This document shows, one piece after another, positions 16,744-18,589 of a DNA stretch of 32,641 nt; position 1 is the stretch's first letter, and each line of letters starts with the position of its first letter. Location of the stretch: the NCBI GenBank assembly GCA_021159185.1, contig JAGGSH010000015.1:1-32641 (forward strand), written 5' to 3'. The translations under genes and the position numbers were made by a program. This DNA is from a bacterium (lineage in GTDB: Bacteria; Patescibacteriota; Minisyncoccia; Moranbacterales; UBA9337). The notes beneath the pieces were generated by a model. That model did no database searches and was not told the DNA's origin. It saw only the letters and a program-made list of their open reading frames with translations.

Positions 16744-16806
16744 TGTTAATCTCACTTTAAATAATTTACCAGTAAAACTAACATTTATCAAATAGTTTTC
16801 GGAATA

Positions 16807-16857
16807 AAAAAACCGCCGGCAAAAGCAAGTTTGCTTTCCGTTAAAATACCAGCGGCA
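16807..16857 (-). terminator. Intrinsic terminator (minus strand) CCGCTGG...AAAGCAAACTTGCTTT...CCGGCGG-TTTTTTT
   Basis: 7 bp outer stem with one G-U pair, inner AAAGCAA/TTGCTTT stem, followed by 7 T. Confidence 0.8.
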
Positions 16858-16860
16858 AAA

Positions 16861-17034
16861 CTAAAAAATTTTTTGGTATATTCTGTCGTAAACTGTTACG
16901 ACAAAAAAACAAATTATTTTGACTCTCCCTTTTCTCTGAATCCCCAATTTATATATTGGAGCAAAGAGATGGAGAGGAGAAAGATAGTGCGCGACGAGAC
17001 CGCGCAAACTTTTATGATAATACGATCTACACAT
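16861..17034 (-). other. Candidate independent transcription unit: structured ncRNA or 57-aa sORF (MCRSYYHKSLRGLVAHYLSPLHLFAPIYKLGIQRKGRVKIICFFVVTVYDRIYQKIF)
   Basis: TTGACA-like -35 and TATAAA downstream of an upstream terminator; AAAGGAGG-N6-ATG; internal perfect hairpins; followed by its own intrinsic terminator. Confidence 0.45.
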
Positions 17035-17092
17035 CGCGCGCCTCCTTTTTTTGGTTTTATATTTTTTTTATTTTTTGTCAAACAACTTTTTA

Positions 17093-17137
17093 AAAAAACA
17101 AAAGACAACTTCCCGTGGAAACTGTCCTTTGTTTTCA
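17093..17137 (-). terminator. Intrinsic terminator on minus strand downstream of murF: AAAACAAAGGACAGTTTCC-ACG-GGAAGTTGTCTTTTGTTTTTTT
   Basis: Long near-perfect inverted repeat followed by T-run on the minus strand. Confidence 0.85.
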
Positions 17138-17262
17138 AAGCAACTTATGTTGGCAACCCTTGAATTTTCCTCTTATTCTCTTGTAATTTTTATTTTCAAC
17201 GGAAAATTATCTCACCGTTATTTTTATAATAATCCTTTTTTAAATCCTGTAAATACTTACCC

Positions 17263-17284: not shown

Positions 17285-18589
17285 CTACGGCTTTGTGTAA
17301 GGCTTTTTTAACCAATCTTCCGACTGGCGGCACAAAATATTTTCAGCTTCTCGCGGATTTAGCATTACTTCTTCCACGATTTTTTCCATTCTCATTGATT
17401 GCGAACCTTTGATTAAAATTAAATTACCATCTCTGATTTCTTCTTGAAGTTTTTTTCCGGCTGAAACAGGGTCGTTGAAATGAAATAATCTGCTCGCGGG
17501 ATAGCCCAGCGATTTGAGTTCCCCAATTGCTATTTTCATTCTATCGCCTACCGTAAAAATAAATTTTGGATTTACTTGAAAAATTTTCCGCGCTATTTTG
17601 CGATGCCCGCCCTCCATATCTTTTCCCAGCTCCAGCATATCCCCCATCACTGCTATTTTGCCGACTGTTCTCACTTTCATTAAAACATCCAGCGCCGCTT
17701 CCGCTGAAGCCGGCGAAGCGTTATAAGTATCATCAATAATAAAACTGTTTTTTATTCCGGGAATTAAATTCATTCTTCCCGCGGGAGGAAAAAAATTATC
17801 TAAAGACTCGGCAATATCCACCAGATTAATTTTAAAAGCTATGCCGGCTGAAATCCCCGCTAAAATCGCGTAAATATGATGCCGGGCCAGAATGTGGCGC
17901 AGGCGCACCGGAATAATCTTTTCTTGATAACTGAGTTTAAAGCTAATGCCTGACGGTCTGCTATTTTGATAATTAAAATCTATAATGTCCGCTTTTACAT
18001 CGGCTTCTTTTAAGCCGAAGGTAATAATTTTAGATCGGACTAGGCTCTCCATATTTTTTATTTGGCTGTCATCGGTGTTTAAAATAGCCATCCCATCTTC
18101 AGGCAAAGTTTCCACTAGTTTTCTTTTTTCTTTGGCGATATGGTTCACACTTTTGAAAAATTCTAAATGGCTGGAGGAAATATTAGTTATAATTCCAACA
18201 TTAATAGGAATAAAATCGGTTAAATATTTCATATCCCCCGGGCGGTCAACTCCCATTTCCAAAACTAAAATTTCCGGGTATCTCGCGGGGAAAATAATAA
18301 TAAAAAGCCATTTAATAAAAACTTTAAGCCATTTTTGCCAAGAGCGCTTTCCGCTTTCCACCCCGATAATAGTAAGCGGAATGCCGATTTCATTATTATA
18401 ATTCTTCTCGCTTTTGCGCGTTCTGAATTTTTGGGAGAGAACCATAAAAACAGCTTCCTTGGCAGAAGTTTTTCCCACTGATCCCGTAATTCCCACAATA
18501 GACGGCTTGTATTTTTTTATAACCATCACCGCCATCCAGCGAAGCATTTTCTCTAGATATTGTATTTTTTTAGTTTTCATAGCTCGCAC
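17285..18589 (-). CDS. murF: UDP-N-acetylmuramoyl-tripeptide--D-alanyl-D-alanine ligase
   Basis: GITGSVGKTSAKEAV, LEMGVDRPGDMKYLTDF, IDDTYNASPASAEAALDVL, AVMGDMLELG. Confidence 0.95.
   Translation of the reverse strand: MRAMKTKKIQYLEKMLRWMAVMVIKKYKPSIVGITGSVGKTSAKEAVFMVLSQKFRTRKSEKNYNNEIGIPLTIIGVESGKRSWQKWLKVFIKWLFIIIFPARYPEILVLEMGVDRPGDMKYLTDFIPINVGIITNISSSHLEFFKSVNHIAKEKRKLVETLPEDGMAILNTDDSQIKNMESLVRSKIITFGLKEADVKADIIDFNYQNSRPSGISFKLSYQEKIIPVRLRHILARHHIYAILAGISAGIAFKINLVDIAESLDNFFPPAGRMNLIPGIKNSFIIDDTYNASPASAEAALDVLMKVRTVGKIAVMGDMLELGKDMEGGHRKIARKIFQVNPKFIFTVGDRMKIAIGELKSLGYPASRLFHFNDPVSAGKKLQEEIRDGNLILIKGSQSMRMEKIVEEVMLNPREAENILCRQSEDWLKKPYTKP

Follow-up and report, generated by a model that had tools for sequence, protein, structure and literature searches.

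The window analysed here, a stretch of 32,641 nucleotides from a genome of Candidatus Moranbacteria, carries on its minus strand, in this order, ftsI, murF, a leader unit, tRNA-Glu and a polyprenyl synthetase gene. The region from murF to tRNA-Glu (Table 1) is best explained as a small self-contained expression unit, made up of a DnaA box, a promoter, a leader of ~125 nt, an open reading frame (ORF) and a terminator.

Table 1. Features of the leader unit and its neighbours, listed in the direction of minus-strand transcription; the 5' end of the leader RNA is inferred from the -10 box.
Feature	Position	Strand	Basis
murF (Mur ligase), gene upstream of leader	17285-18589	minus	Pfam Mur_ligase_M and Mur_ligase_C
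DnaA-box-like TTATCCACA, directly 5' of promoter	17271-17263	minus	pattern search
Leader promoter TTTACA-16-TATTAT, 10/12	17253-17226	minus	promoter scan
Conserved leader RNA (putative attenuator)	~17219-17093	minus	CM R1 match 17091-17193, 89.4 bits
Hairpin 1 (5' arm UUCAAGG 17164-17158, 3' arm CUUUGAA 17140-17134)	17164-17134	minus	covariation
boxA-like element GTTGCTTTGAAAACA	17144-17130	minus	rRNA-derived 18-nt boxA matrix
Intrinsic terminator (putative attenuator) AACAAAGGACAGTTTCC..GGAAGTTGTCTTTTGTT with T-run	~17133-17097	minus	covariation
Shine-Dalgarno AAGGAGG	17047-17041	minus	sequence; full AGGAGG match, 6/6
57-aa small ORF MCRSYYHKSLRGLVAHYLSPLHLFAPIYKLGIQRKGRVKIICFFVVTVYDRIYQKIF, the hairpin-dense region of the original prediction	17034-16864	minus	homologues, dN/dS
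Terminator of small-ORF unit	~16856-16806	minus	sequence; 7/7 pairs of tested stem in sister species
tRNA-Glu (CTC)	16743-16667	minus	ARAGORN and Rfam tRNA

The original prediction for this region was a new structured non-coding RNA gene lying between the two terminators (17092-16807), with a promoter of its own. Both terminator hairpins are present, as are the stems quoted in its support, and in an Rfam scan nothing but the tRNA matched at gathering threshold, with low-scoring chance matches only, over the leader, at E ≤ 10. Predicted folding of the 293-nt unit is also strong (-85.2 kcal/mol, compared with -58.3 in dinucleotide shuffles; z -5.9), which together with the bounding terminator speaks for an RNA gene; for the ORF part alone z is -5.1. 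The homologous region of the sister species, however, shows no excess of folding (z -0.3), and in the only close homologue 18 of the 26 tested pairs are kept, with the long inner stem broken (3 of 7 pairs). The helices singled out in this way are largely not conserved in relatives, whereas those of the leader directly upstream are. The proposed internal promoter (TTGACA 17081-17076 and TATAAA 17061-17056) has a spacer of only 14 nt and is absent from the promoter scan, the best minus-strand promoter of which lies instead upstream of the first terminator.

What occupies 17092-16864 is essentially a 5' gap followed by a protein-coding small ORF with a perfect Shine-Dalgarno (SD) sequence. Its product has a homologue in the sister species, G001, where it is the second ORF (61% identical across 54 residues), and a third genome, G008, has a distant homologue. 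Comparison with the G001 homologue gives dN 0.23 and dS 1.76, and the differences fall 13/10/25 on the three codon positions (binomial p 0.006 for the third), so that, judged by purifying selection and the ribosome-binding site, the ORF is protein-coding. Since an SD-preceded ORF is conserved there as protein and the RNA structure is not, the non-coding RNA gene was rejected, and we give this reading almost no weight. A new structured RNA is nevertheless present, not in that stretch but directly 5' of it, at ~17219-17093. The first terminator, which had been assigned to murF, is likewise real; because the better promoter lies upstream of it, it belongs to the unit's leader, of which it forms the 3' end, and it may also serve murF.

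When the region was compared by blastn with 57 relatives, the widest matches fell in the stretch 5' of the unit originally proposed. Alignment of these loci shows that they have in common a promoter, a hairpin, a CUUUGAAAACA block that is conserved and a terminator whose sequence is conserved too. Covariance-model searches, in which each locus was read, gave 30 leaders of this main type in 26 of the 131 genomes of the order, and besides these there are seven leaders of a second sequence type; a further 11 order-level matches were judged to be generic terminators, were removed from the leader set and serve below as controls. Promoter and terminator are present in all copies bar a few weak exceptions, and an SD-preceded ORF follows in 27 of the 30. 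Some 98 of the 131 genomes have neither type, a figure that includes genomes lacking a contiguous murF region or possibly carrying unrecognised variants, and the element is thus not essential to the order. Within the order it occupies several genomic places, and four genomes carry it more than once; where it is missing from the position described here, murF is often followed directly by tRNA-Glu, and some of these genomes carry the leader elsewhere.

An exact-pattern search of 84,980 genomes returned 14 matches, titled Candidatus Moranbacteria or Moraniibacteriota, Parcubacteria group only (two), uncultured bacterium, Bacterium BMS3Abin15 and Micavibrio, the last presumably mislabelled. In a sample of 384 genomes of the class nothing convincing was seen outside the order among the matches read; weak matches in G335 and G363 were left out, and L136 (G140), L197 (G407) and L116 (G316), also outside the order, looked like generic terminators when read. 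We conclude that this is a previously undescribed RNA leader of Moranbacteria, conserved and without an Rfam match, and that it is very probably an attenuator-like leader for small ORFs.

Other arrangements were seen in the course of reading the loci. Directly after murF, G008, G010, G014 and G108 (L183, L117, L124 and L121) have promoter-leader-small-ORF units in which the leader has diverged; that of L183 keeps a hairpin, followed by GTTCTTTAAAT, lacks a terminator and precedes the homologue of the window's small ORF. In G038 (L016, ~1530-1720) a lysine-rich ORF of 13 residues, MAKKKKAAKKKKR, is preceded by a DnaA box, a TATAAT-type -10 box and an A-rich leader of similar kind, which has a small hairpin and, again, no terminator. 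Degenerate or partial repeats of the tRNA-Glu region follow murF in several genomes (L135, L138, L141, L193, L194).

The relatives have a near-consensus TTGACA-N16-18-TATAAT promoter at the same place, and 20 of the 30 leader promoters score at least 11/12, compared with 0.3% of shuffled sequences. In the 200 nt upstream of them, 20 of the 30 main-type and all seven second-type leaders (27/37) have the DnaA box TTATCCACA or its complement, usually 13-25 nt from the -35 box, whereas it occurs in 5 of 858 other 200-nt windows of the same loci. Genome-wide, TTATCCACA has 23 copies in the window's own genome, compared with one of the reversed control; these scattered boxes possibly mark more DnaA-controlled promoters.

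The leader itself consists of a hairpin with a boxA-like 3' arm and an intrinsic terminator that starts where the boxA-like motif ends. Both helices covary. Across the 30 leaders 15 of 25 pairs are changed on both sides, compared with 4.4 in shuffles and 1-5 when the partners are slid, and 93.8% of cells are paired over the two helices, compared with 45-56% when slid. The doubly changed pairs number seven of eight for hairpin 1, in which (U)UCAAAG(C/U) pairs with (G/A)CUUUGA(A) and several copies pair AAGG with CCUU; for the terminator hairpin they number 8 of 17, with 97.8% of cells paired. One and the same sequence forms the 3' arm of hairpin 1 and the boxA-like motif, an arrangement by which hairpin 1 would hide the core of the boxA-like element. 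Inspection by eye for a classical antiterminator helix involving the terminator's 5' arm gave nothing convincing.

Could the transcript of ~125 nt be an end in itself, a trans-acting small RNA finishing at the first terminator, with the ORF a separate gene or reached by leak-through only? The near-consensus promoter, the strong terminator and the high sequence conservation are all what such an RNA would have. Against this, an SD-preceded ORF begins 28-94 nt after the terminator (median 51 nt) in 27 of the 30 main-type loci, even where the leader sits at other genomic places, and after none of the 11 control terminators. In some loci, moreover, the gap is 28-35 nt, leaving no room for a separate promoter. 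We therefore regard a small RNA as unlikely and favour a leader that acts on the ORF behind it.

The ORFs themselves are diverse. Those of the main type have a median of 54 aa (range 34-157) and belong to many unrelated families, and in the second type the first clear SD-preceded ORF is usually farther from the terminator (124-252 nt; one is cut off by a contig end). A family with a REAIRILMxSPxYF-like sequence recurs behind both leader types. No match was found for the tested ORFs in Pfam, NCBIfam, PHROGs or PADLOC, the last two searched with six ORF products. One leader-linked family of ~150 aa, A7 (L068:2510-2950(-), L070:2557-3021(-), L074:3060-3533(+)), is rich in cysteine; its conserved cysteines comprise a CxxC, a CPxC and four more, and the family is probably metal-binding. 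No database match was found for A7, and its AlphaFold model (mean pLDDT 61, pTM 0.52) was too weak for a structure search. Profile matches of A7 in the PDB to gp41 constructs (E ~0.003) were judged to be chance, because no single stretch passed alone.

Such variety of ORFs, the several genomic places, the multiple copies in four genomes and the direct succession of murF and tRNA-Glu where the leader is lacking might all be expected of a mobile or phage-derived cassette, with the leader a part of its own spread and the ORFs its cargo. The exact pattern, however, has no match in 2.9 million viral contigs, the six ORF products belong to no PHROG or PADLOC family, and no integrase was noticed at the loci, although this was without a systematic search. 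A mobile origin for the unit consequently appears very unlikely, and regulation of the small ORF by its leader is the better account.

What, then, might operate the leader? The published proteobacterial boxA consensus is GYTCTTTAANA (PMC5725501), from which the main-type leaders differ by two to three mismatches, a distance at the level of chance. The 23S and 16S leaders of the order have their own boxA-like words, such as CCTTGAAAACTGAATAG, CTTTGACAATT and CCTTAACAATTTATG, and an 18-nt matrix built from these finds its best site at the same aligned position in 30 of the 30 leaders. This result is moderate evidence, because the choice of rRNA words was made by eye and the 30 leaders, being related, do not agree independently of one another. 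Against shuffles, the main-type family consensus gives p 0.003-0.03 and the extra copies in G055, G078 and G080 give 0.002-0.024 (0.002 for GTGCCTTAACAA in L053, for example); the window's copy alone, at 0.22, is not significant, and nor is that of G022, at 0.16. NusB is encoded in 125 of the 131 genomes, including the window's own (G000:C2:11956-12345).

The 16S and 23S rRNA genes of Moranbacteria appear to be unlinked, and each has a promoter of its own. In the 16S leaders (L091, L092, L094, L095) and the 23S leaders (L157-L160, L162, L164, L165) the boxA-like site is preceded by a hairpin that resembles a terminator and has a long T-run (e.g. GGATGTGTTTTTTTGTTC, GCGGTTTTTTTATT), so that antitermination would be needed there too.

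Stronger support for boxA comes, at the level of sequence, from the second leader type, which seven genomes of family f11 carry in the same position behind murF, again with a DnaA box and promoter. Its terminator has a different sequence, yet the layout is that of the main type: a long hairpin, AGAGAGCT-CGGTTG/AACCGT-AGCTCTTT, has a 3' arm, AGCTCTTT, that runs on as the boxA GCTCTTTAACA, after which comes the terminator. In four of the seven leaders GCTCTTTAACA matches GYTCTTTAANA perfectly, which at most 1 of 200 shuffles achieves, and the hairpin covaries (6 of 15 pairs). Five f11 leaders (L176, L177, L178, L180, L181) also share a TAGGGGAYARCCGT-like segment within the boxA-masking hairpin and, 5' of it, a AAATTGAATA-like word that resembles the 3' half of the rRNA boxA sites.

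The architecture, the covariation and the downstream ORF would hold equally without boxA, and the effector could then be something other than NusB-S10, such as a ribosomal protein, another RNA-binding protein or the state of translation, the boxA likeness of the main type being a coincidence of the conserved UUUGAAAAC word. Consistent with this, the GACAGUU..GGAGUUGUC arms of the terminator, with their conserved G-U pairs, are more conserved than termination requires, suggesting that the stem of the terminator is itself specifically recognised. Against it stand the exact boxA at the same place in a leader type of different sequence, and the extra copies, which vary in a boxA-compatible manner (GTGCCTTAACAA, GCTCTTTGGCAA). 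A different effector is possible, though clearly the less probable of the two; for boxA as the leader's switch we would put the odds at about even.

Our best model, with a probability of roughly 0.5, is a boxA-based transcription attenuator operated by NusB-S10 and placed ahead of a small ORF. In the sequences of these units we see a promoter and a DnaA box, a pair of covarying hairpins, a boxA-like motif whose place is constant, a terminator and an adjacent coding ORF; from these we infer binding by NusB-S10, an antitermination switch and its direction, an action of DnaA and a role for the protein. By default, hairpin 1 would pair with the boxA core and the next hairpin would form as an intrinsic terminator, stopping transcription before the ORF. 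Should NusB-S10 (NusE) capture boxA as it emerges, hairpin 1 could not form, and either the base of the terminator would be blocked or RNA polymerase would become resistant to termination, or both. Read-through would then allow the small ORF to be transcribed and translated from its strong SD, making the small protein depend on how much free NusB-S10 is available and hence on rRNA synthesis and growth, with the DnaA box as a second link, to replication.

Known systems resemble this model in part. The boxA/Nus-controlled 5' untranslated regions, such as that of suhB in Enterobacteriaceae, likewise carry their boxA away from rRNA, in front of a protein gene and in an organism that encodes NusB; putative boxA sites also lie ahead of rpsJ, prsA and ParE-like toxin genes (PMC5725501). 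In Moranbacteria, however, a covarying hairpin holds the boxA in its 3' arm, an intrinsic terminator begins right where the boxA ends, and the leaders precede uncharacterised small ORFs. For suhB, repression and Rho-dependent termination are described, and it is against Rho that the boxA-bound Nus complex of E. coli is said to act (PMC5725501); since the complex represses at E. coli suhB, regulation by the leader could run in the opposite direction to that proposed here. Leaders of rRNA operons that use boxA antitermination share the consensus promoter, the leader and the boxA, of a type similar to that before 16S and 23S in this order, but the Moranbacteria leader is short and leads to a terminator and a small ORF, not to rRNA. 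The attenuators in Rfam (T-box, ribosomal protein leaders, trp/pyr) also have a structured leader that contains an intrinsic terminator and precedes an ORF with an SD; the leader described here, unlike these, has no Rfam match, and no leader-peptide codon run or known ligand domain was seen in it. 6S RNA (RF00013), for which there is no match in the window's genome, is similarly a short conserved bacterial RNA with its own promoter, whereas the present leader comprises two consecutive hairpins with a terminator at the 3' end.

Very little is known of gene regulation in Patescibacteria. Searches of the open-access literature turned up no paper on small RNAs that names Moranbacteria, nor any that brings together Candidate Phyla Radiation, noncoding RNA and riboswitch. 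An rRNA boxA held in a masking hairpin before a terminator would be a new layout for control by Nus factors, and such a leader would directly read out free NusB-S10. More speculatively, these units may be dedicated regulatory cassettes that use a DnaA box together with a boxA-masking attenuator to link fast-evolving small proteins both to the initiation of replication and to antitermination of the rRNA type, a growth-state switch assembled from housekeeping parts in bacteria with tiny genomes, the switch being kept while the proteins are swapped; we hold this idea tentatively. The leaders point to small proteins that have been overlooked, candidates for roles in growth or host association, which, on the sequence data, the leader probably controls in step with growth.
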